Assembly: GCA_021324685.1 (NCBI GenBank)
Contig: JAJPIQ010000009.1
Span: 62,001-126,000 of the forward strand
Length of the DNA: 64,000 nucleotides
Direction of reading: 5' to 3'
Origin: Bacteroidota bacterium
GTDB lineage: Bacteria; Bacteroidota; Ignavibacteria; Palsa-1295
Made by a program: the position numbers and the translations under genes. Position 1 is the first letter of the stretch; every line of letters begins with the position of its first letter. The notes beneath the pieces were generated by a model that was given only the letters and a program-made list of their open reading frames with translations, did no database searches and had not been told where the DNA came from. Positions 30,110 through 48,447 of this stretch are shown in pieces.

Positions 30110-30283
30110 AGGATTTTGGGATAGTGAATGAATTTTAGGAGCCGGATAACTCCGTTTACAGATCAAAAAGTTGCCGAATTCAAATAGCTTGAAATCCAAC
30201 TAGGACGCGATTACTTTGCTTAAAGAAAAATATCTTGGGAATTCGGTCCATATGACAGCATAAGGATATTTAATGGGACTTTG

Positions 30284-30356
30284 CGCACCTGGAGGGACTC
30301 GAACCCCCAACCCTCGGTTCCGAAGACCGGTACTCTATCCGTTGAGCTACAGGTGC
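30284..30356 (-). tRNA. tRNA-Arg (anticodon UCG)
   Basis: Read on the minus strand from 30356, the sequence starts GCACCTGTAGCTCAACGGATAG and ends GGGTTCGAGTCCCTCCAGGTGC plus a G discriminator. The acceptor arms GCACCTG and CAGGTGC pair. The D-arm, a 7-base anticodon loop CTTCGGA (anticodon TCG) and the T-loop TTCGAGT are all in place. UCG reads CGA codons, giving arginine. The outermost anticodon-stem pair looks like C-A. The CCA end is not encoded. Confidence 0.95.
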
Positions 30357-30878: not shown

Positions 30879-31985
30879 CTAATTTTTCCATGTAATATCG
30901 GCGGAATCTCGAAGTGTTGTGGGGAATGCCGCAGCAGGCGAGGGTCCGAGATAATTCGTTCCATACTCTCGCGCATATGCTTTCTCGATCACTTTTCCGC
31001 TCTTCATTACCTGAACAAGAGTGAATCCAAAGTTGCGATCGTTCCCGACCGGGTTTTCAAGCGGGCTTCCGCCATTGCCGGCAATGATCATCCATGTTTT
31101 GCCACCCGGCTCCAGCCGTCGGTAAATGTGATCGTGCGCCGAAAGCATCGCTTCGACCTCATACTGCTGGAGTTCGGACCACAATGCGCTCTGAGAAGCC
31201 GGAATACTGCTGGTTGTCCCGTTATCGTCGTAGGCCGGTTTATGGTCGAGCACGAAAATGTGTTTGATGCCTGTCGTGGCCCGGGCCTGGGCGAGGTCCT
31301 CAGCAACCCAGTGCACAGCAACGGTCGAACCGGCACCCATCGGATCGGAATTGAGAAGGACGAAATGCGAGTCCCTAAAATTAAAGGAATAGCTGAGTCG
31401 GGTTTGATCGGTCGGAAGCGCGTCCGCTCCACCGGCGGTCGGGCCGTTGGAACCGATAACATACGGCGCCATGACTTCCAGCCATTTTTGCTCGATGGCG
31501 ACCGTGCCGGTGCCATCGTTCGTCTCATGGTTGCCAGGGACGACGACGAGGCGAATACCGGAACTGGCGATCGGCGAAGTCTCATAGTGCGCGCGCCATC
31601 CACGGAGCTCCGTTCCCAGCAGCGAGGTGTCTGTTGTTTTCCCGAGGACGAGATCGCCCACCAAGAACATGTAATCGGGTCGCGGCGAAAGCTGCATCAT
31701 GTCGGTAAACGTGCGGTCCAGTTGTGCGAGATTCGCGGTGCTCGGGTTCCCATTCAGATCGAGGTCGGAATTGTCCACTCGATTGCATCCCATCACGCAA
31801 AAAGAGTAGAGCACGCTATCGGGCACGGATGTTACCGTTGTATCCGGAGAGCGATGTGTCGTATCGGGCGGGGTGCCGCTGCTTACGCCATGACTGCACC
31901 CAAAGAGAAAGGCGCTCGTCGCAGCAATAAGAACCGTGACCGCGAGAACAGGCCACCATATTCGAAAAGGGGTCGAAAAATGCAT
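30879..31985 (-). CDS. Calcineurin-like metallophosphoesterase lipoprotein (copy 1)
   Basis: The 368-aa exported enzyme starts at 31985. The signal (WWPVLAVTVLIAATSAFLFGC) ends in a lipobox, followed by an Asp/Thr/Pro-rich linker. The phosphoesterase core shows FLVGDLVLG, VVPGNHETNDG, LDHKPAYDD and SAHDHIYRR, matching the GD, GNHE, H and GHxH motifs of the dinuclear metal site. The usual first DxH motif is replaced by a CVMGCNRVD segment, as in purple-acid-phosphatase-like relatives. It probably hydrolyses phosphate mono- or diesters outside the inner membrane. A close paralogue ends 4 bases upstream; both follow a beta-helix lipoprotein and a TonB receptor. Confidence 0.87.
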   Translation of the reverse strand: MHFSTPFRIWWPVLAVTVLIAATSAFLFGCSHGVSSGTPPDTTHRSPDTTVTSVPDSVLYSFCVMGCNRVDNSDLDLNGNPSTANLAQLDRTFTDMMQLSPRPDYMFLVGDLVLGKTTDTSLLGTELRGWRAHYETSPIASSGIRLVVVPGNHETNDGTGTVAIEQKWLEVMAPYVIGSNGPTAGGADALPTDQTRLSYSFNFRDSHFVLLNSDPMGAGSTVAVHWVAEDLAQARATTGIKHIFVLDHKPAYDDNGTTSSIPASQSALWSELQQYEVEAMLSAHDHIYRRLEPGGKTWMIIAGNGGSPLENPVGNDRNFGFTLVQVMKSGKVIEKAYAREYGTNYLGPSPAAAFPTTLRDSADITWKN

Positions 31986-31989
31986 TTGC

Positions 31990-33027
31990 TTAGTCCTTCC
32001 ATGTAATATCCGCAGAATCGCGGACGGCGGTTGGATTTTGTGAGGGAGAATCTTCCGCGGCATATCCTGCAGCGGGAACGTTATGTCCGTAACTTTTCAC
32101 GATGACACGGCCACTCTTCATGACGGTCACGACGACAAATCCAAAGTATTGCTGCTCCGGAGGGAGGTCCTTTTCAAGCGGTGTTCCGCCGTTGCCTGCA
32201 ATGATCATCCACGTCCCATGGTGGTGTGGCTGAAACCGTGCATATTCGTGTACGTGTGCACCGATCATTGCTTCGGCATGAGCGGCTTCCATCGCGGCCC
32301 AGAAATCCGTGCGAATTCCACCGGCCATACTCATACTACCATCCGAATTGAAGGCCGGTTTGTGGCCGATCGCGAAAATATGTTTCGCTCCATTTTGACG
32401 CGCTTTCGCGATGTCCTGTTCGATCCAGTGAACGGGAACGTGCGAGTCCTGTCCATCCGGATCGGTATTCATCACGATAAAATGGCTGTCATGATAATCG
32501 AAAGAATAGGTGAGTTGACTCTGGTCTGTCGCGAGCGTATCCGCGCCGCCCTGGTGCGGTCCGTCATTCCCACTGATCAACGGCTGCATGACATCGAGCC
32601 ACTCGTGCTCGTTTTCAGGCGAAGAGAACTTTTTGTCGCCATTGTCAATATCGGTCTCGTGATTGCCAGGGATGGCGACAATCTTAATTCCTGCTTTCGC
32701 CGTGGGCGATGCCTCGGCACGGTCGCGCCAGAGCTCGAGTGCATGTCGCAGTTTCACGGTATCGTGCTCATAGCCGAAAATTTCATCGCCATCGAAAAAG
32801 AGGAATGCCGGCTTTGGATTCAGCTCTGCGACTTCTGAAAACAGCCGGTCGAATTGCGCAATGTTAATTCCCGCCGGATTCGTCGTGGAATTTGTATCCG
32901 ATTTGTCCATCCGGCAGTCGCCTGCGACGACAAAGGAGTAGGCGACTTCGTCCTGTTTTTTTGCACAGGCGCCGATCGTCATCGCAACGGCGAGTACGGC
33001 GAAAAGTTTAAATGTGAATTGCTTCAT
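31990..33027 (-). CDS. Calcineurin-like metallophosphoesterase lipoprotein (copy 2)
   Basis: The 345-aa paralogue of the next gene downstream has a signal peptide with lipobox (LAVAMTIGAC). The core motifs are FVVAGDCRMD, FFDGDEIFGYEHD, AIPGNHETDIDNGD, AIGHKPAFN and GAHVHEY. Both copies share the sequence WxxIxGNGGTPL/SPLE after the metal site, and both end in YxxxxPxxNPTAVRDSADITWKx-like tails, showing recent duplication. The C-terminal ADSADITWK-type ending is nearly identical between copies. The start at 33027 was chosen because it begins the signal peptide. It is probably an extracytoplasmic phosphatase or phosphodiesterase. Confidence 0.87.
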   Translation of the reverse strand: MKQFTFKLFAVLAVAMTIGACAKKQDEVAYSFVVAGDCRMDKSDTNSTTNPAGINIAQFDRLFSEVAELNPKPAFLFFDGDEIFGYEHDTVKLRHALELWRDRAEASPTAKAGIKIVAIPGNHETDIDNGDKKFSSPENEHEWLDVMQPLISGNDGPHQGGADTLATDQSQLTYSFDYHDSHFIVMNTDPDGQDSHVPVHWIEQDIAKARQNGAKHIFAIGHKPAFNSDGSMSMAGGIRTDFWAAMEAAHAEAMIGAHVHEYARFQPHHHGTWMIIAGNGGTPLEKDLPPEQQYFGFVVVTVMKSGRVIVKSYGHNVPAAGYAAEDSPSQNPTAVRDSADITWKD

Positions 33028-33041
33028 AACGTCCATATAGG

Positions 33042-33081
33042 CGAATGCCGAGTGCGAAAGATTCTTTGCACTCGGCATTCG
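33042..33081. repeat. 14-bp perfect inverted repeat between lipoprotein genes
   Basis: CGAATGCCGAGTGC (33042-33055) pairs perfectly with GCACTCGGCATTCG (33068-33081). The 12-base centre can add a further AAAG/CTTT pairing. No T run follows on the minus strand. The hairpin lies between the beta-helix lipoprotein stop and the phosphoesterase start of the same transcript. It is more likely an mRNA processing or stability element, or an attenuator, than a full terminator. Confidence 0.75.
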
Positions 33082-33095
33082 TTGAAAAAGAAAGG

Positions 33096-34598
33096 TTACT
33101 GCTGGTTTCCGGAACCGTCCTGTTGGTAAGCACCGTAGTCTTTACCGAGGCCGAGTGTTGTATAGTCGGCGCCATAAGGATTGGAAGCGCTTTTAACGGA
33201 AGTGACCGCATTCATTGGGACCTGAATTGTCTGTCCTGAATTGGTCTTAACCGTTCCGGTGTACGCGTGTCCGACGGCCGGCGAGCTGGGCTGCAAATGG
33301 AAATCGCTCTTGAAGCTGGTCGTCACATCGACGAAGCGCTGATTCCCTTTCTCGTCCATCGACCGCATCAGATTGAAAGCCGGATAGGAGAGCTGGTCCG
33401 AAAATGCCATCGGGAATTTATTATAGTAGGTGACCGGGAACTGGTCCGGATTGTATCCGACAAACATCGGATTATTCTGGCCAGCAGTTCCATGCACATC
33501 GCCTGTTTTCCAGACCTGAATGCCCCCATCGCTCGGCGAATTGAAGTGGGCGACGACGCTATCTTCCGAGCCATAATAATATTGATAGCCGTATGCGGTG
33601 TTTGCCGTATCGGCTAAATTTGCGCCGCCGGTCAGGAGCCGGAACCCGGTACGGCAATTGACGATCATGTTATTGTATTCGGTTCCACGTGCTCCGGCCT
33701 CGATGTCCGTTGAACCGGCACGTCCGGATTTGGTGCATCGCCAGCCACCCGTCACGATCGTATTATTATAGATGTTGACATTGCATTCCGGATTCGAACC
33801 GCCGGTATTCGCGAGTTTCGGGCCATTGGTTGCAATGCCAATAAAAACGTTATACGCAATATCGCCGACCGTCCCAGACTTCATATTGAAATCGCCGCTG
33901 GTCGGTGCTGCACATTCGACCACATTGCGGAAAATGCTGATTTTACCGCTGGAAACGCGGAGCGGATCGTCCGTCGAACCGGTAATCCACGAATCTTCCA
34001 TAATGAAGTTCGCATTGGGGTTTTGGAACCAGACAGCATAGCGTGTTCCACCGTTACCGACGATCGGATCGTTCGTTCCTGAAGAGCCGCCTGCGAATTC
34101 GATGTGCGTCCATTTAAGAATAAGGTCCCCGGAACCCCCATTGGTGACGCCGGCGGTTGTTGGTCCAGCGCATTCGATGCCACCCCAGAGCGCGTTCGAA
34201 CTTGTGTTCGTGAGGTCCGCGTATTTACGAAGGTTTTTCGGAACCGTAAGGTAGATCGGATCGCCTTGCTGACCGTCACAGATCAGCGTTCCAAAGACCT
34301 GGAATTCCGGCGAACCGACAGCGCTCGTGGTTCCCGTATTGAGTACGATGACGTGTACACCGTGCTGAATGATGAGTGTATCGCCAGCGGGAATAATGAT
34401 CGTACTGTCCATATAGTACGTGCTGTCCGCCAGCATAACGCCGCTGATGCCCTGATAGCCGCCGACGGTGTCCTTCGTGATCGCATGGGCTGGAGGAGTC
34501 CATGCATTGGAGACCGAGGTCGAGCTTTTGCACGCGGCCAGCGACAGCGCAAAGGCCAGAGCCGCGACAGAGTAGAGAATCGAGGATCGAAGTTTCAT
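33096..34598 (-). CDS. Right-handed parallel beta-helix lipoprotein
   Basis: The 500-aa protein starts at 34598 (KLRSSILYSVAALAFALSLAAC, lipobox LAAC). After a Ser/Thr linker come regularly spaced strands typical of a parallel beta-helix: YMDSTIIIPAGDTLIIQHGVHVIV, GTLICDG, WGGIECAGPTT, TRYAVWFQNPNANFIMEDSWITG, ISIFRNVVECA and VNIYNNTIVTGG. The fold is shared by pectate-lyase-like and many surface-binding proteins. No catalytic motif is evident. It lies between the TonB receptor and the phosphoesterases on the same strand, so it may bind the ligand handed to the receptor. Confidence 0.82.
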   Translation of the reverse strand: MKLRSSILYSVAALAFALSLAACKSSTSVSNAWTPPAHAITKDTVGGYQGISGVMLADSTYYMDSTIIIPAGDTLIIQHGVHVIVLNTGTTSAVGSPEFQVFGTLICDGQQGDPIYLTVPKNLRKYADLTNTSSNALWGGIECAGPTTAGVTNGGSGDLILKWTHIEFAGGSSGTNDPIVGNGGTRYAVWFQNPNANFIMEDSWITGSTDDPLRVSSGKISIFRNVVECAAPTSGDFNMKSGTVGDIAYNVFIGIATNGPKLANTGGSNPECNVNIYNNTIVTGGWRCTKSGRAGSTDIEAGARGTEYNNMIVNCRTGFRLLTGGANLADTANTAYGYQYYYGSEDSVVAHFNSPSDGGIQVWKTGDVHGTAGQNNPMFVGYNPDQFPVTYYNKFPMAFSDQLSYPAFNLMRSMDEKGNQRFVDVTTSFKSDFHLQPSSPAVGHAYTGTVKTNSGQTIQVPMNAVTSVKSASNPYGADYTTLGLGKDYGAYQQDGSGNQQ

Positions 34599-34667
34599 GG
34601 TCAATAGTAGAGTTAAGTGAAACATGGTAGCCGAAATGGAACTTTGCGTTCCTCTGAGGCCGAATGA

Positions 34668-37439
34668 TTACATCTTGAATCGAACGCCCAGGAAGTAGGT
34701 CCGATCATAGAGCTCTTTTCGTATAAGGATGTCCTGTCCATTTACCTGATTGGCGATCGGCTGTTGATAATCCGAATTTTCGTACGGTTCGTGAAGTACT
34801 TCTTCGCGCGGTGTGTTGAGCAGGTTCGTCACTTTCAGGTAGAGCGAAAGGTTACCCCAGAGACGCTGCTCTCCGGAAAGGTCGAACTGAAGAAAGGGTT
34901 TTTGCCAAACGTCGTTATTGAGGTACGTCGAAACCGCCACGATCGCATTGCCCGTATAGACGGCGCTGATCTGTGCATCCGTCCCGGTTTCGAAATTCTT
35001 GTAGAGCAGGGAGAGGTTACCGATATGATCGGCCTGCCCTTCGAGTGGTCGCGTTTGCGAGACCGTGTCGAAAACGACGCCCGTGCCATTGACATAATGC
35101 GTCTGAACTTTGGCCGAGGTGATCGCCGATTTCGTATACGTATAATTTCCGGAGATCCCGAAGTTCGAAAAGAATTTTCTGAAATCGATCTCGAATCCGT
35201 AGTTTGTCGCGTCGCCTAAATTTTGTGGCTGATAGATCGAGTTAACTTGAATGTCTTCGATCACCCATTCGATGGGATCATGCAGCCGTTTATAAAAAGC
35301 ACCCACCAACAATTGATCGAGCGCTCCCGGGAAATATTCCCACCGCAGGTCCAGGTTGTCAATTTGCGTTCGCTGAAGACTGTCGTTGCTGACTTCGGTA
35401 TAATCGTCGCCGGGAACGCCAAGGCTGGGAATGACTTCGTAAAACGTCGGGCGGCTGATCGACTTGAAATAGGAGGCTCGCCAATTCTGATTTTCGGTCG
35501 GAGAATACTTCAGGCTTAGTGAAGGAAGAAGATCGACATAGGTGATATCGCCGGTCTTTCCCGGAAGGGAAGCGGGCTCGGAACTGGTCCAGCCAAAATC
35601 GGTCTGTTCCATACGAGCGCCACCGAGAACGATGAGGTTTCCAATGGGAAACTTCGCTTGCAGGAAGGCCGCGGTTACATTTTCGTGGCCGTTATAGTCC
35701 AATGGATTGGCGGCGGTGCCGAACGGCGTATAGACCGAAAACGTATCGAGCGAAATGTTCCCATTGTAATATTGCTGGCCGTTCTGGACGCGCAACTCGT
35801 ATTCATCGTAATTCGCATTGCGCGTTTTGTTGCGGAACATTCCGCCATAAGTAAGTTCCGCGGTCGTTCCGAGCACGTCTTCGATCGATCTTAAATTGAG
35901 ATAGACGCTCTTGTCCTCATCGGTGCTGCTTTCCCAATACCGTTTGCTGTCATCGACGCGATAGGGCTGGATGTTTGGCGGGTTCGACGTGTAGTTGACG
36001 CCGCCGAGCAAGGATAGATGTGCTTCGTCGGGATCGTTTAAGGTCGCGCGTGAATAGGCGATGTGCCAGTCGGCCGAAAGATCTTTTCCGAGAAGAGCAT
36101 TATTGCCGCTTAGGGTGACGTTCGCAATCCCCTGCGTCTGGTTCTCCGTACGAATGGTCCAATCGACTTCGGGGTTCAGCGGCCAAGAACCTTTTTCGTT
36201 TACGGTGTCGTACATGTTACGCTCCTCTTGTTTGTTCAGGCTCGCATACATGCCGAAGATTTGGAACGTATTGTTCTCATCGGCGCGATAGTCGATATTC
36301 GTCATCGCTCCCCAGCGCCTCTGGAACGTACTGTAGGTTCGGTTCTCGAATTCCGTGAGCGAAGGGGTTCCGGCGATCTGATTGATGTCCGACTGGAAAA
36401 AGAGGGTATTGGCGCCGCGGTACGTGTTCTGGAAGCTACCGGAAAGGATCAAGCCGAGCTTTTGATCGTCTCCAAAGCGATTGCCATACGTGGCCGAAAA
36501 ATTAGCGGCGGGACTGACGCTAATGGCACGAGGGTCCCATGTGCTGGCTGGGAAATCGGCCATCGTCGCTTCATACGAAGTTCCTCGCGCAATCCGTGGC
36601 GATTCGGCATTATCGGGGGTGAAAGTATAAAACTTTTGTCCTGTACCGAAAATATCGTTGTATCCACTTCCGGCTTCCATCGAAAGCACCTCATGATCGG
36701 GGGCCTGCTTCATCACCAGGTTCATGACGCCGCCGGTTGCATCGCCTTCCATCGAAGGGGTCAGCGTTTTTGAGACTTCAAGCCGGTCGAGCAAACTCGA
36801 TGGGAATATATCGAGCGGGACGTATTGATTGACATTGTCCGGACTGGGAATTTTAATTCCATTGACGGTCGTATAATTATACCGTTTGTCCATTCCCCGA
36901 ATGATGGCATATTGCGCATCGCCGGTGGCGGCCGTGCGCGTCATGGTGACGCCCGAAAGGCGTTGCGATGCATCGGCGACCGAAATATCGGGCGAAATTT
37001 CGATGGTCCGAGCCGATATCGCATTGATCACATTCTCCGACGTCCGCATACGCTCGAGCGTACTTACGTCACTACCATGTTCGGTTTTACCGGTGACGGT
37101 TACTTCGTGTCCACCCGACATGGTGAACTGTCTGAGCGCAATATTCAGAGTGTCCCATGCATCTTCGGATGCCACCTCGACGGAAATTGTAGTATCGCGG
37201 TAGCCGGGATAGGAGATCGAGAGCGAATAGTTACCCGGCGCGAGATCCGAAATTTTATAACTGCCGTCTAAGCCCGAGACGGCACCCATATGCTTCCCGA
37301 CCACGGCAATCCGGACTCCAGGAAGCGGCGAATTATTGACTTCGTCGGTCACGGTTCCGATAATAGAGGCCGCGTGTGCAAAAACCGGAATAGCAACGAA
37401 CAAAGAGCAGACGGCAAGTCTGAAAAAACGAACGATCAT
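34668..37439 (-). CDS. TonB-dependent receptor with N-terminal carboxypeptidase-regulatory-like domain
   Basis: The 923-aa outer-membrane receptor has a signal peptide (IVRFFRLAVCSLFVAIPVFAHA). A CarboxypepD-reg-like beta-sandwich (IIGTVTDEVNNSPLPGVRIAVVG..., about 25-110) follows. The plug domain contains RLSGVTMTRTAATGDAQYAIIRGMDKRYNYTTVNGIKIPSPD, followed by a large barrel ending in RTYFLGVRFKM. This form resembles TonB receptors found in phosphate- and sugar-starvation loci. The substrate is not visible. It begins the minus-strand unit that continues through the beta-helix lipoprotein and both phosphoesterases. The start at 37439 was taken at the signal-peptide Met. Confidence 0.9.
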   Translation of the reverse strand: MIVRFFRLAVCSLFVAIPVFAHAASIIGTVTDEVNNSPLPGVRIAVVGKHMGAVSGLDGSYKISDLAPGNYSLSISYPGYRDTTISVEVASEDAWDTLNIALRQFTMSGGHEVTVTGKTEHGSDVSTLERMRTSENVINAISARTIEISPDISVADASQRLSGVTMTRTAATGDAQYAIIRGMDKRYNYTTVNGIKIPSPDNVNQYVPLDIFPSSLLDRLEVSKTLTPSMEGDATGGVMNLVMKQAPDHEVLSMEAGSGYNDIFGTGQKFYTFTPDNAESPRIARGTSYEATMADFPASTWDPRAISVSPAANFSATYGNRFGDDQKLGLILSGSFQNTYRGANTLFFQSDINQIAGTPSLTEFENRTYSTFQRRWGAMTNIDYRADENNTFQIFGMYASLNKQEERNMYDTVNEKGSWPLNPEVDWTIRTENQTQGIANVTLSGNNALLGKDLSADWHIAYSRATLNDPDEAHLSLLGGVNYTSNPPNIQPYRVDDSKRYWESSTDEDKSVYLNLRSIEDVLGTTAELTYGGMFRNKTRNANYDEYELRVQNGQQYYNGNISLDTFSVYTPFGTAANPLDYNGHENVTAAFLQAKFPIGNLIVLGGARMEQTDFGWTSSEPASLPGKTGDITYVDLLPSLSLKYSPTENQNWRASYFKSISRPTFYEVIPSLGVPGDDYTEVSNDSLQRTQIDNLDLRWEYFPGALDQLLVGAFYKRLHDPIEWVIEDIQVNSIYQPQNLGDATNYGFEIDFRKFFSNFGISGNYTYTKSAITSAKVQTHYVNGTGVVFDTVSQTRPLEGQADHIGNLSLLYKNFETGTDAQISAVYTGNAIVAVSTYLNNDVWQKPFLQFDLSGEQRLWGNLSLYLKVTNLLNTPREEVLHEPYENSDYQQPIANQVNGQDILIRKELYDRTYFLGVRFKM

Positions 37440-37744
37440 CGAAGCGAGTACGAAATAGAAAAGAGGCGTTGAGGAATCAGCACCGAACTGCCACCAACTT
37501 CTCGGCAAAATTATCGCTTCGAAATTTTTAAATGATTACAAGCGTGTAACCTCTATGTTAAAAAACTATTATGGTGCGCGTGTCGAGTAAATTGGATGAA
37601 CCGCCTATTTAAAGTTCCGTAGCGGCGTTCCATTCTCGCGATACAGGGCATAACAATTCGAATACTGCAACATAACCTCGCAGTAATATCCCGGTAATGT
37701 TCGAATGATAGTTTTGTGACGAAACTCTTTTTCACATTTGACTC
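37440..37744. promoter_or_regulatory. Divergent control region between the TonB receptor and the T9SS repeat protein
   Basis: These 305 non-coding bases sit between divergent genes. Toward the plus-strand gene are GCAGTAA (37680-37686) and CCGGTAA (37691-37697), direct repeats with 11-bp period. TTTTG at 37712-37715/6 and ATTTG at 37736-37740 are spaced like a Bacteroidota -33/-7 promoter, though the -7 box is a weak match to TAnnTTTG. Toward the TonB gene are TGTAA (37545-37549) and TGTTA (37556-37560), again 11 bp apart. Response-regulator boxes of the Pho type have this period. Recognition by PhoB is only a suggestion. Confidence 0.45.
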
Positions 37745-40255
37745 ATGAGACATCGGATACTACTTTGTTTTCTTGCATTTGCAGGTTTTGCTACCAGCGC
37801 TCAGGCACAATCGACCCTGATCCATTATTGGAACTTTAATAATTTGACGGGGACCTATAAAAATCCCAATATCCCGAAGTTCGATGCGGATTATTCGATC
37901 CTCGATACGAGCAAAGCGTATCTTCAATATTATTTGAAGCCCGGGGTGTCGAGCAATTATGCCGGATATATCGATGGATACACCCCCACACCGAATAATG
38001 AGAACATTGATGCGGATACTTTGAACGCGCGCAATGGATCCATGCCCGGAGTTGCGCTCCGTGTACGAAATCCAGTGGATTCGAGCGAATTGCGTTGGCA
38101 TATCCCAACGACGGGCTATAGCGGCATCGTTATTAAATATGCCCTCGAATCCTCCAGCCTGACCAGTGGCGATTCAACACAGCATTTTTCTTACAGTCCC
38201 GATGGTGGAACGACGTGGGAAACGACGAACATCACGGTCAATGGGCAAACGGCCGATACCCTCAACACCACCGCGGTCTCCTACTATGGTGATACGAACT
38301 GGGGGCTGGTGACCATCACATTAGGAAGTGATGCCAACAACAACGCAAACCTGATTTTCCGAATCTTTGCGACCGGTAATGCCAGCAAGACCAGTGGCAA
38401 TCTCCGATACGATAATGTTACCGTGGAGGGCGTCCCTACCTCTCAACCGCTGGCACTCATTCATTACTGGAACTTCAACGGCTTGACCGGGACCTATAAA
38501 GTTCCAAACGTTCCGAAGTTCGATGCGGATTTTTCAATCCTCGATACGAGCAAAGCATATTTACAGTATTATCTGTTGCCGAATACATCGAGCAATTACG
38601 GCGGATATATCGATGGATACACTCCCACCCTCAATAGCGAGAATATCGACGCCGATACTTTAAATGCGCGAATTGGGGCCACGCCAGGCGAGGCGCTTCG
38701 CGTTCGAAATCCAGTCGATTCGGTCGAACTTCGCTGGCATATTCCGACGACCGGATACACCGGCATCGTGATTAAGTACGCCCTCGAATCCTCCAGCCTC
38801 ACCAATGGCGATTCAACGCAGCATTTTTCTTATAGTCCGGATGGGGGAACGACCTGGAAGACGACGAACATCACGGTCAATGGTCAAACGACCGATACAC
38901 TGAACACCACGGCTGCCGCTTATTACGGCGATACGAACTGGGGCCTGGTCACGATTACATTAGGGAGCGATGCCGACAACAACGCCAACCTGATTTTCAG
39001 AATTGTGGCAACGGGCAATGCCAGTAAGACGAGTGGCAATCTTCGATACGATAATGTTACGGTCGAAGGAATGGGGGCCTCCGTTCAGCCGCCGGCTTTT
39101 ATAACCATGACAGCTCCAGCGATCGGAACATTATTAGAAGCCGGGCGACAAACAACGATTTCTTTCACGACTTCCGGGACGGTGGGCGAAGTTCGAAAAA
39201 TCCAATTTTCGCCCGACGGGGGCACAACCTGGCAGGACGTGACGTCGGAGACCGGCGCGACGACGTATCAATGGACGGTACCGAACACCCCGACGACCAT
39301 GGGGGAAATTCGCGTGGTCGATTCCGCTAACGTTATGGGAACTTCAAAACAGTTTACCATCGTCGCACCGGGCACCGGTCTTATCGTTCACTATTGGAAT
39401 TTTAACTGGTGGACCAGCGCCTCGTATCACAATCCTGGAATTCCTGCTATTCCATCCGATTATTCCGGAAATCTAAACCACATCGGCTCGATTCAATATG
39501 TTTTGGATGCAAGCAATAAGTCCTATCTTGGTTATCTGGACAATGTTCCCGGCGACACGGTGAACGCTCGCTTCGGTTCTATCGCAGGAAGCGGTATGCG
39601 CGTTCGCAATCCAACCGACAGCATGGAACTACGTTGGATCATTCCGACAAAAGGTTATCAGGGAATTAGCATCACCTACGCACTGCAATCTTCCAGTCTT
39701 ACCGGTCCGCAGGTGCAAAAATTCGATTATAGCACGGATGGCGGAGTAACGTGGACAACGTCAGGATTGACCGTGAATGGATCCGCTCAGGATACACTCG
39801 ATGTAACACAAAGTCAATACCAGCAGGCCACGGCGTTCGCGCCAGTAACGATCGGATTCAGTGGTCAAACCTCTGTTAACAATAATCCAAACCTTATTTT
39901 CCGGATGAAGTTTGGCGATACGGCTACGGACGGAACCAGTGGAAACAATCGCATCGATAATTTCGCGGTCGTCGCTACCGCGCTCGACGGAGTAACGAGC
40001 ACGATGCAACCCGTGGAGCAGTGGAATGTCGCTCCAAATCCCACGACCGATATGATCGGTTTTAAGAATCCATTTAGTTCACCGGTAACTCTCTCGGTCT
40101 CCGATATGCTCGGCCGTGAAGTGTTACGAATGAATCCGACCGATTCCAAAGAATTACAATTGAATGTCTCTTCGCTTAGCCCAGGTTCGTACTATCTGGT
40201 TGTAAAAGATAGTCAGACCGGTGCAGAGCAGGGAACGAGCTTTATCAAGAAATAG
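37745..40255 (+). CDS. Secreted repeat protein with T9SS sorting tail (three LIHYWNFN units)
   Basis: The 836-aa protein has a signal peptide (RILLCFLAFAGFATSAQA). Three units of about 213 residues each open with LIHYWNFN and end in NLRYDNVTVEG-like sequences (units from residues 25, 238 and about 545). Each unit contains LRVRNPVDS.ELRWHIPTTGY and FSYSPDGGTTW, looking like a jellyroll or lectin-type sandwich. Between units 2 and 3 is one Ig-like domain (ITMTAPAIGTLLEAGRQTTISFTTSG...). The last 80 residues are a type A T9SS sorting domain (WNVAPNPTTDMIGF..., ASLSPGSYYLVV-like). It is probably a surface binding protein. The catalytic function, if any, is not visible. Confidence 0.87.
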   Translation: MRHRILLCFLAFAGFATSAQAQSTLIHYWNFNNLTGTYKNPNIPKFDADYSILDTSKAYLQYYLKPGVSSNYAGYIDGYTPTPNNENIDADTLNARNGSMPGVALRVRNPVDSSELRWHIPTTGYSGIVIKYALESSSLTSGDSTQHFSYSPDGGTTWETTNITVNGQTADTLNTTAVSYYGDTNWGLVTITLGSDANNNANLIFRIFATGNASKTSGNLRYDNVTVEGVPTSQPLALIHYWNFNGLTGTYKVPNVPKFDADFSILDTSKAYLQYYLLPNTSSNYGGYIDGYTPTLNSENIDADTLNARIGATPGEALRVRNPVDSVELRWHIPTTGYTGIVIKYALESSSLTNGDSTQHFSYSPDGGTTWKTTNITVNGQTTDTLNTTAAAYYGDTNWGLVTITLGSDADNNANLIFRIVATGNASKTSGNLRYDNVTVEGMGASVQPPAFITMTAPAIGTLLEAGRQTTISFTTSGTVGEVRKIQFSPDGGTTWQDVTSETGATTYQWTVPNTPTTMGEIRVVDSANVMGTSKQFTIVAPGTGLIVHYWNFNWWTSASYHNPGIPAIPSDYSGNLNHIGSIQYVLDASNKSYLGYLDNVPGDTVNARFGSIAGSGMRVRNPTDSMELRWIIPTKGYQGISITYALQSSSLTGPQVQKFDYSTDGGVTWTTSGLTVNGSAQDTLDVTQSQYQQATAFAPVTIGFSGQTSVNNNPNLIFRMKFGDTATDGTSGNNRIDNFAVVATALDGVTSTMQPVEQWNVAPNPTTDMIGFKNPFSSPVTLSVSDMLGREVLRMNPTDSKELQLNVSSLSPGSYYLVVKDSQTGAEQGTSFIKK
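37817..39094 (+). repeat. Two tandem 639-bp coding repeats
   Basis: Unit 1 begins at 37817 and unit 2 at 38456, exactly 639 bp (213 codons) apart. They align along their whole length with high nucleotide identity, including synonymous sites, for example in the GGGACCTATAAA and GATACGAACTGGGG stretches. This indicates recent duplication or gene conversion. The third unit of the same gene, from about 39379, is diverged. Confidence 0.85.
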
Positions 40256-40277
40256 CCAAGCTGCACTGCGGTTCCAA

Positions 40278-40324
40278 AAGCAGTCCGGTTTCGACTCTGT
40301 CGGCCGGGCTGCTTCTCATTTATA
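40278..40324 (+). terminator. Probable terminator between the two T9SS repeat genes
   Basis: An 11-bp stem, AAGCAGTCCGG (40278-40288) with CCGGGCTGCTT (40304-40314), has one G-T pair and a 15-base loop. It is followed by TCTCATTTAT. The T tract is imperfect, so some read-through into the next repeat gene is possible. Confidence 0.65.
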
Positions 40325-40340
40325 ATCCGTGCATAAAACC

Positions 40341-40399
40341 CCGGTAATTTCCCGGTAACAGTAAGTCAGTATTTTTGACGGAACCTCTATTCTTATTTG
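40341..40399 (+). promoter_or_regulatory. Candidate operator and promoter of the second T9SS repeat gene
   Basis: CCGGTAA occurs twice, at 40341-40347 and 40352-40358, an exact direct repeat with 11-bp period. A TTTTTG block (about 40372-40377) and an ATTTG block (about 40395-40399) follow. The arrangement, spacing and much of the sequence match the region upstream of the first repeat gene (37680-37740), so the two genes probably share a regulator. The start codon at 40412 lies about a dozen bases after the last block, implying a very short leader. Confidence 0.5.
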
Positions 40400-40411
40400 A
40401 CTTTATACCCC

Positions 40412-43400
40412 ATGTCCAAACGTTTCAAAAGGTTTTGCACCATTGCGTTCCTATTACTTTTTAGCTGTTCGCTGAAGGCGCAAACGACACTGCTCCATTA
40501 CTGGAGTTTCAATAAGATCACGTCTAAAGCAACGATCCCGGCTCCCGCAATCCGTGCGGATTATTCGTACCTCGATACGAATAGGGCGGTCGTCCAGTAC
40601 GATACAATTCCGGGCACTCCGAAAGCCTATGTTGACAGTATCAATACGAACAGCAAAAGCAATGGTGCGTATGACAATGTTGCCGGCGATACGTTGAACG
40701 CACGACAGGGATTTATAGCGAGTAATGCACTCCGCCTTCGAAATCCAAGCTGGAGTTCCGAACTCCGGATTTATATTCCGACGACCTTTTACAGCAATCC
40801 GATCGTAAAATATGCCCTGCAGTCATCGAGTACAACAAGCGGGCAGCATTACCAGATATTCGCATATAGTATCGATAGCGGAAAGACGTGGAAAACAAAC
40901 GGCATGACCGTCAACGGCGTTGCGACCGACACGCTCGATTGCACGCAGAGCCCGTATCAGCAGGCGACTTCGTTCGGTCTCGTCACGATCGGTTTTGTTG
41001 GGGACACGAACGTCAATAACAATCCGAAATTCGTATTTCGAATTCGCTGGGCGGGACAGGCGAGTACGTTTAGCGGCAATAACCGTTTCGATAATCTTTC
41101 GGTCGAAGCCGGGCCGGTCCCTCGAACGATCGTGCTGCAAACGCCACATTTTGGCGACACCCTGATCAGTGGGCAGCGTGATACAGTGACGTTTACAACG
41201 ACAGGAAAAATTTCCCAAAAAACTTCAGTCTTTTATTCGCTCGATTCGGGAATGACCTGGAATGCACTCGGCACCGATACGGTCACCGGTTTTTTTACGT
41301 GGATGATCCCCCCGGTCGTCAATCCGGTCCCGTTTGCCATGCTCGCCGTTGTCGATTCTTCAGGTGTCAAAGGGTATAGCCGAACATTCGTGATCTTACC
41401 GCAAAAATATTATCCGCCGGACCCGAGCCTTATTTACTACTGGCATTTTAACGGTCTGGCTGGAGTGTTTCAATATCCGAATGTTCGCTCGATCGTTCCC
41501 GATTTTTCGGCTGCCCCGAACGCATCGATGGTCTATGCACTCTCGTCCGGAAGTTCGATCTCGCAGGCCGGCCAATTTCAGGACGCGACCGGAACGACAT
41601 TGAATACACAAATGAACTATGTGGCCGGCCGGTCGCTCGAACTCGACAATCCGACCAACGCGATTGAATTACGGATGTATATTCCGACGGTCAATCGAAA
41701 AAATATTGCGGTCCACTTTGCGCTCCAAACGTCGAACGGCTATCAGGGACCGCTCGAGGCACTCTACGATTATAGTATCGATAGTGGCCGTACGTGGAAA
41801 ACGGCAAGTCATAAATTCGACTCGATCGCCAAAGCGCCGTTTACCAATGGCGGATGGGGATATATAAGCGTCGACCTTTCTTCCGACCTCTATGCAAGTG
41901 ACAACTCCCATCTTGTGTTCCGCATTCGCTTTAGCGGCAATAATGGCGGTTCGACCGGTCTTGTGCGACTCGATAATGTGACCGTAACCGGAGAGGTCGG
42001 ACAGGTAACGATTCCGGGATCGATTACCTTGCTCCATTATTGGAATTTTAACAAACTACTCGCCGTATACCACAATCCTGGCATTCCCTCGCTCAAAGCC
42101 GATTATTCACTGTTGGATACGAATGCGGCGCATATTGACTATACGCTTGAGCCCGGGACCTCGAACACGTACCTCGGTTATATCGACAATGTTGCCGGCG
42201 ACACCACGAATGCGCGCAACGCCGACGCAGGCGGTCAGGCGCTCCGCGTTCGAAATCCGAGTGACAGTATGGAACTTCGGATGGCGATTCCGACGACGGG
42301 GTATAAGAAGATCGTGCTCAAATATGCGCTCGAATCTTCGAGCATTACGAGCGGTCAACTCGCCGAACACTTCGATTACAGTCCCGATGGCGGCACAACA
42401 TGGAGTAGCGCCGGCTTAGTCGTGAACGGCGAGGACGTCGATACGCTCGATGTGACGCAGACTCAATTTCAGGGAACGAGCTGGGGGCTTGTGACCGTCG
42501 CGTTCAGCGATCCAAGCACCAGCAATAACCCGCATCTCGTATTTCGAATTAAGTTTTCTGGTAATACTTCCAAGACCAGCGGCAACAATCGTTTCGACAA
42601 CGTGACGGTGGAAGGGTTCCCCGGAGTCGATTACGCCGCAAGCCCCCTCATTCACTACTGGCACTTCGATTCGCTCAACACGGCTTATCATAATCCCGGC
42701 ATTCCGAATTTACCCGCCGACTTTTCCGTACTGACGTCCGGTAATCCACGCATTGTGTATACGCTTGAGCCGGGAACGTCCACGACGTATGGAGGCTATA
42801 TCGACAACGTTGCCGGGGATACCCTGAACGAACGATTGGGAGCAATTGCGGGCCAGGCGCTCCGCGTCCGAAATCCAAGCGACAGTATGGAACTTCGTTT
42901 CGTCATTCCGACGACCGGCTATCACGACATTGCATTTTCGTATGCGCTGGAATCGTCGAGCACGACCAGCGGCCAGCTTGTGGAACACTTCGATTATAGC
43001 CCCGATGGCGGTACGACCTGGAAATCGACCGCACTGAGCGTCAACGGTTCCAATGTCGATACGCTCGATGTCACACAACTGCAGTTCCAGGGCACGAGCT
43101 GGGGCCTGGTCTCCATTGGGTTTGGAGATGATACGACGGTCAATAACAATTCCAACCTTATCTTCCGAATAAAGTTCTCAGGCAATACTTCGAAAACAAG
43201 CGGCAACAACCGCTTCGACAACATTGCCGTGGAAGGCACTCCGTTAGGCGTTGAGCAAAAACCGGTCCCTGCGGCCATTGTGGTGTCATCGCCACATGCG
43301 GGTGATACGCTCTTTAGCGGATCTCAAGTCACGATTTCCTATAGCACTGCCGGCCCGGTTGAATCGGCTCGGAGCATCGATTACTCGGTCGACGGGGGGC

Positions 43401-44095
43401 AAACATGGACGCTTATTGCTTCCAATGTAACATCGACGAATTTTATGTGGAGCGTACCCGCAAAAGGTTCTACCGCTGCGTACGTTCGCGTCCGCGATGC
43501 CAATGGAGTTGTGGGGCTAAGCAGCAAATTCGTCATTCTCGTGACCGGTCACATTGAACGTGTTTACCTTCTCGATCCTACTCCCACCGTCGCAGAGCAT
43601 ACCGAAATCTTTTGGTCAGGCGGAGGCTATTTAGGATCGACGGTCGATATCGACGCGAGCTTCGATGGAAAACAAACCTGGACTCCGATCGTCCATGGCT
43701 ATGCCTTCGGGACTGGTTCGTCCTACCCATGGACCCTTCCTTCGACGCCGGACACGGGTGTTGTCATTCGTGTAAAATTTGCAGAAGGCACAACGGCCTA
43801 CTCTGCACCGTTCAATATTTCGCTCCCGCTTGCAAGCGTTTCTGTGGGATCGGAAGCCGGACGTGCAACACTCTGGCCGAATCCTGCGACGAACACGATC
43901 TCGATTGAAAATCCAGCCAACGTTACTTGCGATGTCACAATCGTAGATGCTTCCGGCAGGGAAGTATTGCAAGTTCCGAATCTGTCGGGCGTGGTCTTTT
44001 CAGTCGATATTTCTTCGCTCGCACGCGGTGCCTATCATTTCTTCGTGCGCGATCGAAATTCCGTTTCAAGCGGCACCTTCGTTGTCATTCGTTAA
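40412..44095 (+). CDS. Giant secreted repeat protein with T9SS sorting tail (four units)
   Basis: The 1227-aa protein has a signal peptide (FCTIAFLLLFSCSLKA). Four units related to those of the preceding gene start at residues 27, 340, 540 and 746 (LLHYWSFN, LIYYWHFN, LLHYWNFN, LIHYWHFD). Units 1-2 are separated by an Ig-like domain (IVLQTPHFGDTLISGQRDTVTFTTTG). Two more Ig-like domains occupy about 960-1150, and a T9SS tail (LWPNPATNTISIENP..., ISSLARGAYHFFVRD) ends it. The domains look like carbohydrate- or ligand-binding sandwiches. ATG at 40412 was chosen because it begins the signal peptide; an in-frame TTG lies five codons upstream. Confidence 0.87.
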   Translation: MSKRFKRFCTIAFLLLFSCSLKAQTTLLHYWSFNKITSKATIPAPAIRADYSYLDTNRAVVQYDTIPGTPKAYVDSINTNSKSNGAYDNVAGDTLNARQGFIASNALRLRNPSWSSELRIYIPTTFYSNPIVKYALQSSSTTSGQHYQIFAYSIDSGKTWKTNGMTVNGVATDTLDCTQSPYQQATSFGLVTIGFVGDTNVNNNPKFVFRIRWAGQASTFSGNNRFDNLSVEAGPVPRTIVLQTPHFGDTLISGQRDTVTFTTTGKISQKTSVFYSLDSGMTWNALGTDTVTGFFTWMIPPVVNPVPFAMLAVVDSSGVKGYSRTFVILPQKYYPPDPSLIYYWHFNGLAGVFQYPNVRSIVPDFSAAPNASMVYALSSGSSISQAGQFQDATGTTLNTQMNYVAGRSLELDNPTNAIELRMYIPTVNRKNIAVHFALQTSNGYQGPLEALYDYSIDSGRTWKTASHKFDSIAKAPFTNGGWGYISVDLSSDLYASDNSHLVFRIRFSGNNGGSTGLVRLDNVTVTGEVGQVTIPGSITLLHYWNFNKLLAVYHNPGIPSLKADYSLLDTNAAHIDYTLEPGTSNTYLGYIDNVAGDTTNARNADAGGQALRVRNPSDSMELRMAIPTTGYKKIVLKYALESSSITSGQLAEHFDYSPDGGTTWSSAGLVVNGEDVDTLDVTQTQFQGTSWGLVTVAFSDPSTSNNPHLVFRIKFSGNTSKTSGNNRFDNVTVEGFPGVDYAASPLIHYWHFDSLNTAYHNPGIPNLPADFSVLTSGNPRIVYTLEPGTSTTYGGYIDNVAGDTLNERLGAIAGQALRVRNPSDSMELRFVIPTTGYHDIAFSYALESSSTTSGQLVEHFDYSPDGGTTWKSTALSVNGSNVDTLDVTQLQFQGTSWGLVSIGFGDDTTVNNNSNLIFRIKFSGNTSKTSGNNRFDNIAVEGTPLGVEQKPVPAAIVVSSPHAGDTLFSGSQVTISYSTAGPVESARSIDYSVDGGQTWTLIASNVTSTNFMWSVPAKGSTAAYVRVRDANGVVGLSSKFVILVTGHIERVYLLDPTPTVAEHTEIFWSGGGYLGSTVDIDASFDGKQTWTPIVHGYAFGTGSSYPWTLPSTPDTGVVIRVKFAEGTTAYSAPFNISLPLASVSVGSEAGRATLWPNPATNTISIENPANVTCDVTIVDASGREVLQVPNLSGVVFSVDISSLARGAYHFFVRDRNSVSSGTFVVIR

Positions 44096-44144
44096 AAATA
44101 CGGTTGCCAAAAACGTCGCGCTTCAAGGGATTCCGATTTACAGA

Positions 44145-45128
44145 ATGAAAAAAGTGCTTTTTTTATTTCTTGCGATCGGGCTCTCCCTTGTCGCGTGCAG
44201 TAAAAAATCGCCTACTTCTCCATCGCTTCCAGATACGACTGGGAATAATACGACGAAGCCGGGCGATACAGTGGCCTACGCGCAATGGTCGACGATCGCG
44301 TATGACACCAATACATTTTCGTTGGGAGTGCAGGTCGGAAAAATTACAGACCCATCGATGATGTATGCCTCCGGTATCGCCGCAAGCCGCGCTTATCCCG
44401 GGATGTTCTGGATCGAAAACGATAAGGATGGTAACAGCAAACAAATTTTTCTTGTCGATTCAACCGGGGCAAAGCGTGCCGTGTTCTCCGTTTCGGGTGC
44501 AACCAATCGCGATTGGACCGATATGACGATCGGACCGGGACCGATTTCGGGACAGTCGTATTTATATATTGCGGACATCGGCGATAGCAAAGCGAACCAC
44601 TCGTCGTCGTTTATTTATCGGTTCCCTGAGCCCGCGATGCCGCTTGGTCCTGCCGTTCTCGTTGGCACCACGGCTGCTGCGGAAATCATCGCGTATAAAT
44701 ATCCGGATGGGCCGCGCGATGCCGAAACGCTCCTCATCGATCCCGTATCAAGCGACCTTTATATTGTGGACAAAAATACGCGTTCGAATCTTTATTGCCT
44801 CCCGTATCCTCAAAGCACGGACACGACCATCCTTGCCAAAAAATTGATTCAAAGTATGCCGATTCCCGATGGTCCTCTTCGCTCCGGCGGCATTTCACCT
44901 GCGAGAAACGAGATCCTAATAAAGAGTTATACTTCAATCTATCTTTGGAAAATGTCCTCCACGGAATCGGTCCTCGATGCTCTGCTATCGACCCCCGTTA
45001 CGATTCCAATCACTCCGGAAATACAAGGAGAAGCGTTATCTTATACACCGGACGGTTCGGCCTTCTGGACGACGAGTAAGTTCTCGAGCTTTAATTATGC
45101 CGATTTGGACCGGTACGTTCGGAAATAG
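44145..45128 (+). CDS. Beta-propeller lipoprotein of the phytase-like esterase type
   Basis: The 327-aa protein has a signal peptide with lipobox (FLAIGLSLVAC), a Pro/Thr-rich linker and propeller blades. Blade patterns include YLYIADIGDSKANHSSSFIYRFPEP, RDAETLLIDPVSSDLYIVDKN and GGISPARNEILIKSY. The DAETLL-DP-DLYIV pattern occurs in extracellular proteins labelled phytase-like or esterase-like propellers. Phosphate-ester binding or hydrolysis would fit the phosphoesterase genes nearby, but no catalytic residues are confirmed. It starts 49 bases after the giant T9SS gene. The ATG at 44145 was chosen because it begins the signal; the frame extends upstream into that gene. Confidence 0.72.
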   Translation: MKKVLFLFLAIGLSLVACSKKSPTSPSLPDTTGNNTTKPGDTVAYAQWSTIAYDTNTFSLGVQVGKITDPSMMYASGIAASRAYPGMFWIENDKDGNSKQIFLVDSTGAKRAVFSVSGATNRDWTDMTIGPGPISGQSYLYIADIGDSKANHSSSFIYRFPEPAMPLGPAVLVGTTAAAEIIAYKYPDGPRDAETLLIDPVSSDLYIVDKNTRSNLYCLPYPQSTDTTILAKKLIQSMPIPDGPLRSGGISPARNEILIKSYTSIYLWKMSSTESVLDALLSTPVTIPITPEIQGEALSYTPDGSAFWTTSKFSSFNYADLDRYVRK

Positions 45129-46184: not shown

Positions 46185-47141
46185 TCAAAGCACCCTAAAA
46201 AATCGCAGGGCGTAAGGAAGCAATCCCAGGACGGCGTACGTCGAAAAGATCCAAACCCCCGAAAGCGACTCGAAGCGCTGAGCGATTTTCGGTTCCAAAG
46301 TCCGGGTAAATGTAATTCCGCGTATGAGCGCAAGACCGAACGGGATGGCAAGGAGTGCGAAAGCTTCCCATGGGAACCCAATAGCGCTCGCCGCGAGGAC
46401 CGCAAGAACATAGCTTCCCATCATTAGTATAAGCCAGGTTATCGTCGCACGTCTCGATCCCCAAAGCGCGGAATACGTTTCTACGCCTTCCTCTTCCGTT
46501 TGTGGAGATCGCGTTTTGCGGCCGATTTCGAGGACCATTCCATTCAGGTAGGAGACCGCAAGAAAGATGAGGAGACCGTGCGATGCGCTTGCTCGTTCGT
46601 TCAACCAGTCGAGGCCGGTCGTATAAAGATCGGCGACCGGCATAATCATCATGTGCGAGAGCATATAGGCGATCGGGTGGCGGCGGAGCCATGCTCGAAC
46701 GAAAAATTCTTTCGACATCAGCGCGAAGTACACGAGTGCGGCTCCGAGCGCCGGGAGCAGGCGCGGAAGCAGGAACGCATTGAGCGCCAGAATGACGAGC
46801 ACGAGTATCGCCGCGATCCAGCCGAGTTCCTTGAGTGTTACAAGCCCACGGGGCACGGCACGGTACGGCCGATAGCGGGCATCGTCCTCGGCATCTTTGA
46901 ACTCATCGGCGATGCGGAGTAAGAGAAAGAATGTAACGACCGTCACGACGCCGACCGCAAAGCTTCCGAGAGGAATGAATCCAGGCGCCTGGCGTAACGA
47001 GCGCGAAAAAGAGACCGAAGCAAAAGCGAAGATCGCCAGCAGTGGAGCGTTCTGGACGAACGGGAATCGTTCCGATTGGTAGATCGTGAGTCGGCGCCAC
47101 AGCGGTCGTTGGTTCTCTGCCGGGATCGCGTCGCTACGCAT
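46185..47141 (-). CDS. UbiA-superfamily prenyltransferase (last gene of the seven-gene operon)
   Basis: The 318-aa integral membrane enzyme would attach a polyprenyl chain to an acceptor. The first Asp-rich motif is RIADEFKDAEDDARYRPYRAVPRGLV. The second is degenerate, EIGRKTRSPQTEEEGVETYSALWG, as in a subgroup of UbiA proteins of unknown acceptor. About eight helices are predicted by eye (ALGAALVYFALM, LLIFLAVSYLNGMVL, WLILMMGSYVLAVLAASAIGF). The start at 47141 overlaps the stop of the HMG-CoA-reductase-like gene by 8 bases (ATGCGTAG), which fixes it. The acceptor could be the product of the upstream enzymes rather than a quinone, since no quinone genes are near. Confidence 0.85.
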   Translation of the reverse strand: MRSDAIPAENQRPLWRRLTIYQSERFPFVQNAPLLAIFAFASVSFSRSLRQAPGFIPLGSFAVGVVTVVTFFLLLRIADEFKDAEDDARYRPYRAVPRGLVTLKELGWIAAILVLVILALNAFLLPRLLPALGAALVYFALMSKEFFVRAWLRRHPIAYMLSHMMIMPVADLYTTGLDWLNERASASHGLLIFLAVSYLNGMVLEIGRKTRSPQTEEEGVETYSALWGSRRATITWLILMMGSYVLAVLAASAIGFPWEAFALLAIPFGLALIRGITFTRTLEPKIAQRFESLSGVWIFSTYAVLGLLPYALRFFRVL

Positions 47142-48447
47142 GGGCCGGGATCGCTTCGGGATTCGGGGACCGGCGACGCCCGAAGATGGAATGCGCCTTG
47201 CTGAATTCGTCACTTGCAATGGCCGCAACAATCGAGATTTCGCCACCCAGGAGCGCGGCCGCGACAATCTCGGCGAATTTCCGAGCCGTTCCAGGACCGG
47301 CGCAGTGCATGATCTCGAGACATTCACGCTGCGTGGGGAGGCCCGTGCCTCCACCGATCGTGCCCACAATCAGGTTAGGGAGTGTCGCGCTCGCATATAA
47401 CTCTCCCGATGGGGTAACATCGAATCGTGTCGTTCCGACGCACGCTTCGGCAACGCACGCGATGTCCTGCCCGCAGGCTGCAAAAATCGCAGCGATCCCG
47501 TTGGCATAGTGCCCGTTGACGCCGATGGCACCACTTTGCAAGCTATTCACGATCGAGGTCTTCCAATAGGCCATGATGTCTTCGGGCGTTGTATGGAGAT
47601 CCGAAGCGACCAGCGCTCGAGGAATGATCACTTCTGTCGTAACTTTTTTTCCACGCACGGACGAGAAAGACTGTGCGGTGGCTTTTTTGTCTCCGGAAAG
47701 GTTTCCCTCGACGTACCATTTGACGGGTTGGATCGGCGTGTGCTCGATGAAGTAATGGCAAATCGCTTCTGTGCAGATCGTCGACATGTTCTGACCGGAA
47801 GCATCGCCGGTCGAAAAGTCGAAGAGGAATGTTATTTGGTTTCCATCGATATTCGGACGCATTTCTTCGAGCGCGCCATGGGACGTATGCTCGCGGACGA
47901 CCTGTTTGAGCGTTTCAAACTGCTTGAGAGCCCAAATGAGAAAAGCTCCTGTTTCCGCGAACGTACGAAACCGAAAGGTCGGGGTCCGCTGGACCATTTC
48001 GAGCAGGCAGACACTGGTCGCGCCGCCGGCTTTTGACATCACCGTCGCGCCACGATGGTACGAGGCAACGAGGGCGCCTTCCGTCGTCGCCAGCGGCACG
48101 AGGAAGTCGCCTTTGGCTGCTGTACCATTGACGCGCAGAGGACCAATGATCCCCGTCGGGATCTGGGTCATTCCTATAAAGTTCTCGATGTTCCCTTTGA
48201 GCGATTCCGGCTGGAAGCCTTCGGGGATGGGCATGAGCGATTTCGGCGATACGCCGGAAAGCCGTTCGATATACGCTGCGCGTTCCAATCGCGAGGCTTC
48301 GCCCCAGCTTCGAATTGCCGGTATCGGATCGGGAAGCGGTGTGGTATCCGTCGAGACTGGCGAGATTCGCTCGACAAGCGATTCGAGGCTCGCCTCCTGA
48401 AGAAGCTTTTCAATGCTTTGTACAGCGGCGGTCCGGGCAATACTCAT
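47134..48447 (-). CDS. HMG-CoA-reductase-family enzyme, class I-like active site
   Basis: The 437-aa soluble protein has the HMG-CoA reductase core: ENFIGMTQIPTGIIGPLRVNG, then PLATTEGALVASYHRG with catalytic Glu123, GDASGQNM in the NADPH site, SGDKKAT with Lys254, ACGQD with Asp328, and EFSKAHSIFGR with His419. All four catalytic residues of class I enzymes are present. The normal reaction reduces HMG-CoA to mevalonate, consuming two NADPH. No other mevalonate gene is here, and the operon context suggests it may reduce a different acyl-CoA, or feed dedicated isoprenoid supply. It overlaps the upstream ligase gene by 4 bases and UbiA by 8. Confidence 0.9.
   Translation of the reverse strand: MSIARTAAVQSIEKLLQEASLESLVERISPVSTDTTPLPDPIPAIRSWGEASRLERAAYIERLSGVSPKSLMPIPEGFQPESLKGNIENFIGMTQIPTGIIGPLRVNGTAAKGDFLVPLATTEGALVASYHRGATVMSKAGGATSVCLLEMVQRTPTFRFRTFAETGAFLIWALKQFETLKQVVREHTSHGALEEMRPNIDGNQITFLFDFSTGDASGQNMSTICTEAICHYFIEHTPIQPVKWYVEGNLSGDKKATAQSFSSVRGKKVTTEVIIPRALVASDLHTTPEDIMAYWKTSIVNSLQSGAIGVNGHYANGIAAIFAACGQDIACVAEACVGTTRFDVTPSGELYASATLPNLIVGTIGGGTGLPTQRECLEIMHCAGPGTARKFAEIVAAALLGGEISIVAAIASDEFSKAHSIFGRRRSPNPEAIPAHA

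Follow-up and report, generated by a model that had tools for sequence, protein, structure and literature searches.

A divergent cluster of surface-protein genes in an uncultured lineage near the Ignavibacteria raises the question of what its products do together, and of what switches them on. The cluster lies on contig C19 of a 3.47-Mb genome, within a 64,000-nt stretch of DNA that we analysed as a whole and call the window. All seven open reading frames named in an earlier reading of this DNA (the original prediction), which took the locus to serve organophosphate scavenging, are present at the coordinates given below. The answer that we favor, and regard as likely, is a Pho-regulon locus for the use of organic phosphorus at the cell surface, a variant of the kind represented by PUSIII/PUSIV and ElpS/CC0171 (see below) that is extended by type IX secretion (T9SS) proteins. 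A literature search turned up no paper on a Pho box of this lineage, or on a phosphate-related role of the present genes within it.

The minus-strand operon begins with a TonB-dependent receptor (TBDT; 34668–37439, true start probably the ORF-internal ATG at about 37439), in which CarboxypepD_reg, plug and barrel domains are all found by Pfam/NCBIfam (PF00593/PF07715/PF13620). Its likeness to TIGR01782 scores below the cut-off, and a sequence search of the PDB gave no homolog. Orthologs in five same-genus genomes are 56–72% identical, and the only named relative found, the metagenome-assembled “Ignavibacteriae bacterium palsa_1295”, is itself one of the same-genus genomes. The following gene (33096–34625, minus strand) encodes a 509-aa lipoprotein with a repeat pattern typical of a right-handed beta-helix. 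Of the beta-helix lipoprotein originally claimed, the lipobox and the sequence pattern stand; there is no Pfam match, and the single match of the family in the PDB by sequence is non-significant (E 0.13). The label “beta-helix” rests on this pattern and on context, and it is likewise by context that the protein resembles ElpS and the FI–FIII lipoproteins. Plasmid-borne relatives were sought, and none were found.

The last two genes of the operon encode metallophosphoesterase lipoproteins, at 31990–33078 and 30879–31985 (minus strand; the second probably starts at the ORF-internal ATG at about 31985). These are paralogs (45% identical), and both pass the curated PF00149 cut-off of 21.5 bits with modest scores of about 32 bits (32.3 and 32.7, respectively); the family profile of the first also matches purple acid phosphatase (E 1e-5). 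A lipobox cysteine is present in both, and indeed in all four small surface proteins of the locus (FLFGC, TIGAC, LAAC and LVAC). Among the metal ligands, GNHE and the later histidines are invariant, and the first aspartate is replaced by cysteine in the 30879–31985 protein, which has GCNR where GDCR is expected; the same cysteine occurs in its L014 ortholog. Because of this replacement and the modest PF00149 scores, phosphoesterase activity is not assured. Downstream of the operon lies a tRNA-Arg (TCG) gene (30283–30356, minus strand).

On the plus strand, two long repeat proteins (“giants”) each end in a T9SS type A sorting domain (TIGR04183, cut-off 23 bits), in agreement with the original description. 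Giant 1 (37745–40255, 836 aa; 36.7 bits) consists of three CBM/Reelin-like jelly-roll units of ∼200 aa, one Ig-like domain and the sorting domain, and giant 2 (40412–44095, ∼1,227 aa; 28.4 bits; true start probably the internal ATG at about 40412) has four such units and further Ig-like stretches before its sorting domain. The two are paralogous (52% over 528 aa), and both are built from copies of one unit. An AlphaFold2 model of this unit (pLDDT 86.7) gave mostly carbohydrate-binding modules as its best structural matches, and the list also contained Reelin and gingipain cleaved-adhesin domains; since the fold resembles that of a carbohydrate-binding module, binding is favored over catalysis, and no catalytic family was recognised in either giant. 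The host genome encodes SprA (TIGR04189, 546 bits), and the giants would, from their sorting domains, be exported as T9SS substrates.

The third plus-strand gene (44145–45128, probably starting at the internal ATG at about 44145) had been called a phytase-like propeller lipoprotein. It is a beta-propeller lipoprotein, and the phytase part of the label found no backing: there is no profile match to PF02333 (beta-propeller phytase) or to any other phytase family, a PDB search by sequence found no homolog, and the model (AlphaFold2, pLDDT 73.6) is closest to E. coli YjiK (3qqz; Z 21.2, rmsd 3.1 over 229 residues), with paraoxonase and others ranking below. Foldseek returned generic propellers, and phytase is absent among the 50 structures listed by the second structural aligner.

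What ties the two strands together is their promoters. The original prediction had pointed to direct repeats with an 11-bp period, and these proved to be real and stronger than claimed, with 4–5 units of the form TAAY standing at an exact 11-bp period before each transcription unit. The TBDT-operon promoter (37506–37571, minus strand) has the units TAAT, TAAC, TTAC, TAAT and AAAT, followed by the -7 box TAATTTTG; that of giant 1 (37651–37716, plus strand) has TAAC, ATAC, TAAC, TAAT and TAAT, followed by TAGTTTTG; and that of giant 2 (40323–40377, plus strand) has TAAT, TAAA, TAAT and TAAC, followed by TATTTTTG. In all three, the last unit ends 10 bp before the TANNTTTG box, which we take to be the -7 element of Bacteroidota-type promoters. 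The propeller gene has no box of its own. Over 19 promoters, upstream units that had not been used for site finding match TAAY at 2.51 of 4 positions in the 11-bp phase, as compared with 0.92–1.61 in other phases and 1.34 ± 0.10 in shuffles (z = 11.6). The gapless five-unit register of the TBDT promoter is kept in six species, and the promoter is degenerate in G006. Tandem Repeats Finder saw no array, the units being too diverged for it. Two other descriptions of the repeat were set aside: the literal CCCGGTAA pair (≤2 mismatches) is found at the two giants only, whose promoters look most alike, so that it is uninformative as a general motif and only the TAAY period generalises; and an early pattern with N10 after GGTAA had the wrong spacing and was uninformative.

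The decisive comparison is with the phosphate genes of the same genome, where PhoU, PstB, PhoB and PhoR were located along with three PstS-type proteins. Divergent from phoBR, the promoter of pstB-phoU contains TAAC-N7-TAAT-N7-TAAC, and this three-unit box is conserved in seven genomes (our own and six sister genomes); it has no -7 box at the standard spacing. An outer-membrane porin-like gene and pstS2 form an operon that directly follows pstSCA, and the array in front of it is followed by a -7 box at the standard distance. Thus the repeat occurs upstream of known Pho genes, where the original prediction had proposed to look for it, at both porin-pstS2 and pstB-phoU and in sister species as well as in our genome, and the match supports a Pho-regulon reading. 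The composite pattern TAAYN7TAAYN10TANNTTTG, at ≤1 mismatch, has five matches in 3.47 Mb. Three are perfect (giant 1, giant 2 and porin-pstS2), the TBDT operon has one mismatch, and the fifth site is unclear. As a control, the reversed pattern gave one match in our genome and a total of 40 across nine genomes, an average of about 4.4 each; one unclear site is therefore no more than chance would produce.

The composite pattern was tuned partly on the sites in question, and we therefore added a less circular check, a matrix of box and -7 columns for which the porin promoters of four sister species were the sole source. It was run over 129 kb of our genome (∼258,000 positions), comprising the window and chosen phosphate- and receptor-gene regions rather than a random sample, and within this set the top four ranks are giant 1 (24.0), our own porin (23.8), giant 2 (22.4) and the TBDT operon (19.8); with permuted matrices, the first rank never exceeded 20.2 and the fourth never exceeded 15.6. 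As the locus and the genome's own phosphate-uptake genes have this promoter array in common, the scavenging of organic phosphorus under phosphate scarcity is very likely the function of these surface proteins.

In relatives, motif sites lie at giant orthologs (G003, G004 and G005) and at TBDT promoters. G007 lacks the module, and there the motif precedes a metallophosphoesterase of the P0001/P0002 family; in G004 and G007 an esterase-like gene, PF04185-type as read by eye, also stands behind the motif. Some matches in relatives are at places without a clear Pho gene, and several that lie in convergent or antisense positions were left out of the supporting evidence.

The gene content of the module is also conserved. 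The receptor, beta-helix and phosphoesterase genes occur in constant order in five of six same-genus genomes, with one phosphoesterase only found in the module of G006; in the sister genome G001, no TBDT ortholog passed the threshold. The propeller and the giants lie near the module in four sister genomes, in varying orientation, and the propeller also adjoins the receptor/beta-helix pair in four other genomes. More widely, the beta-helix family is present in 15 genomes of a 296-genome sample of the phylum, and in 17 of 17 further loci (one being a second pair in our own genome) the receptor gene is directly upstream of the beta-helix gene. Neighbors were inspected in 12 of these loci. Among them are a PF02333 phytase, PF00149 phosphoesterases and propeller lipoproteins of the locus's own family, and further phytase-, metallophosphoesterase- and endonuclease/phosphatase-like genes were recognised by eye; in one genome a true PF02333 protein follows the pair. 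Some of the inspected loci, such as L216, have no evident phosphoesterase. The frequent company of phytase, metallophosphoesterases and propellers across the phylum gives the proposed organophosphate role a support independent of the promoters, and the phosphoester theme suggested for the locus is drawn from these neighbors together with the presumed regulator.

Two known systems come closest, and the locus would operate along their lines. In Flavobacterium johnsoniae, PUSIII and PUSIV comprise FI/FII lipoproteins of a pectin-lyase-like fold that are strongly induced by phosphate starvation and lie beside TBDTs and phoBR (PMC8115612). Our locus shares with them phosphoesterases and a TBDT beside a large lipoprotein (of polygalacturonase/pectin-lyase-like fold in the Flavobacterium case), and, like five sister genomes and each of the 17 further loci, it has a TBDT adjoining a beta-helix lipoprotein. 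It differs in that its operon carries two PF00149 lipoprotein genes and that CBM-like T9SS repeat proteins and a propeller of YjiK-like fold belong to it, and its host is of another class; moreover, induction by phosphate starvation was measured in PUSIII/PUSIV, whereas here a Pho-type promoter is read from the DNA. In Caulobacter crescentus, ElpS (CC0170) is produced upon phosphate starvation and has been linked to phosphatase activity, and its gene adjoins that of the TonB receptor CC0171, which is not phosphate-controlled (PMC2996285). Common to both is the outer-membrane lipoprotein gene next to a TonB-dependent receptor gene, but ElpS/CC0171 adjoins T2SS genes, and our locus instead has T9SS proteins and phosphoesterases. 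The likeness to ElpS and the FI–FIII lipoproteins is drawn from context.

SusCD/PusCD systems likewise bring together an outer-membrane receptor, surface lipoproteins and hydrolases. No SusD Pfam match was found among the scanned proteins of the locus and its flanks, so the locus is not of the SusCD/PusCD type; the position of SusD is taken by the beta-helix-type lipoprotein. We tentatively suggest, as a possibility that falls short of an even chance, that this lipoprotein is the TBDT's dedicated partner (a lid or substrate-binding subunit) and the counterpart of SusD in a widespread, SusD-free organic-phosphorus importer, extended here by phosphate-controlled, CBM-like T9SS proteins that keep phosphorus-bearing polymers at the cell surface. 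In our promoters, as in PhoB Pho boxes, 11-bp direct repeats immediately precede the core promoter, and both kinds occur at pst genes; ours differ in their TAAY units, of which up to five stand in tandem, and in the Bacteroidota-like TANNTTTG element. What the locus adds to the known kind is this array itself and the T9SS CBM-like repeat proteins under it. The result is a concrete predicted phosphate-control promoter for this uncultured lineage, with secreted T9SS repeat proteins placed under the predicted control, and the invariable receptor/beta-helix pairing, often by phosphoesterases, makes the function of the little-understood ElpS/FI–FIII kind of lipoprotein directly testable.

A working model can be put together from these parts. 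At low phosphate, a PhoB-like regulator (the product of phoBR, divergent from pstB-phoU) would bind the 11-bp TAAY arrays and recruit RNA polymerase to the -7 box at its fixed spacing, and would thereby induce three transcription units: the operon of receptor, beta-helix and phosphoesterase genes, then giant 1, and also giant 2, with which the propeller gene is probably transcribed. The secreted giants might then bind phosphorus-bearing polymers or surfaces through their tandem domains, the phosphoesterases and the propeller lipoprotein would set free phosphate or small phospho-compounds, and the TBDT, with its beta-helix partner, would carry the product across the outer membrane; free phosphate would be taken up by the co-regulated porin and PstS. 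The division of labor originally proposed, in which giants capture, esterases cut and the receptor imports, is plausible.

The part of this model most open to another reading is the giants, which could instead be phosphate-starvation-induced surface adhesins or matrix proteins that anchor cells to surfaces or particles and play no direct role in capturing phosphoesters. We give this partial alternative a substantial chance, somewhat under one half. The Reelin/CBM/gingipain-adhesin-like tandem units with no catalytic family and the separate promoters suit it, as does the finding that none of the 17 other loci has a homolog of the giants within about 9 kb of its receptor pair; against it can be set that in four sister genomes the giants are linked to the module, and that they share the promoter box, though both of these fit either role.

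Direct repeats of 11 bp are a general trait of OmpR/PhoB-type regulators, and another member of the OmpR family, responding to envelope or nutrient stress, might control the locus and also touch pst, with the receptor importing carbohydrate or a metal. The sub-threshold likeness of the TBDT to TIGR01782 and the carbohydrate-binding appearance of the giants point the same way. We consider it unlikely, given that sister species, too, have the repeat at pstB-phoU/phoBR and porin-pstS2, and that phosphoesterases recur beside the TBDT/beta-helix pair across the phylum. Less probable still is that the repeats were simply inherited through duplication of the giants, with a separately regulated TBDT operon in an ordinary surface polymer-uptake locus: the giants are indeed paralogs with the most similar promoters, both with CCCGGTAA, but the same array and spacing precede unrelated genes (porin-pstS2 and TBDT), and the TBDT array is kept in six species whose receptors are only 56–72% identical.

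Beside the Pho-regulon reading of the locus, a few further sites may be recorded. Elsewhere in the window, an operon-like run on the minus strand (46185–55407) contains HMG-CoA reductase, UbiA-like, AMP-binding, DUF3419 (PF11899) and PPDK-like genes and no high-scoring Pho-type site; the betaine-lipid enzyme BtaA belongs to the DUF3419 family. The second receptor/beta-helix pair of the genome (contig C76, L222, 5958–11085) is divergent from an acid-phosphatase-like PF00149 gene, and has weaker box-like sites on both sides. Two species (L090 and L088) have a copy of the motif lying across the 3′ end of another metallophosphoesterase-like gene, and past it there is only a gene of convergent orientation. 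Finally, five genomes (L188, L104, L108, L110 and L100) share a TAAY/TANNTTTG motif copy at one intergenic position; it points away from the direction in which the two flanking genes are read, and possibly marks an unannotated transcript.
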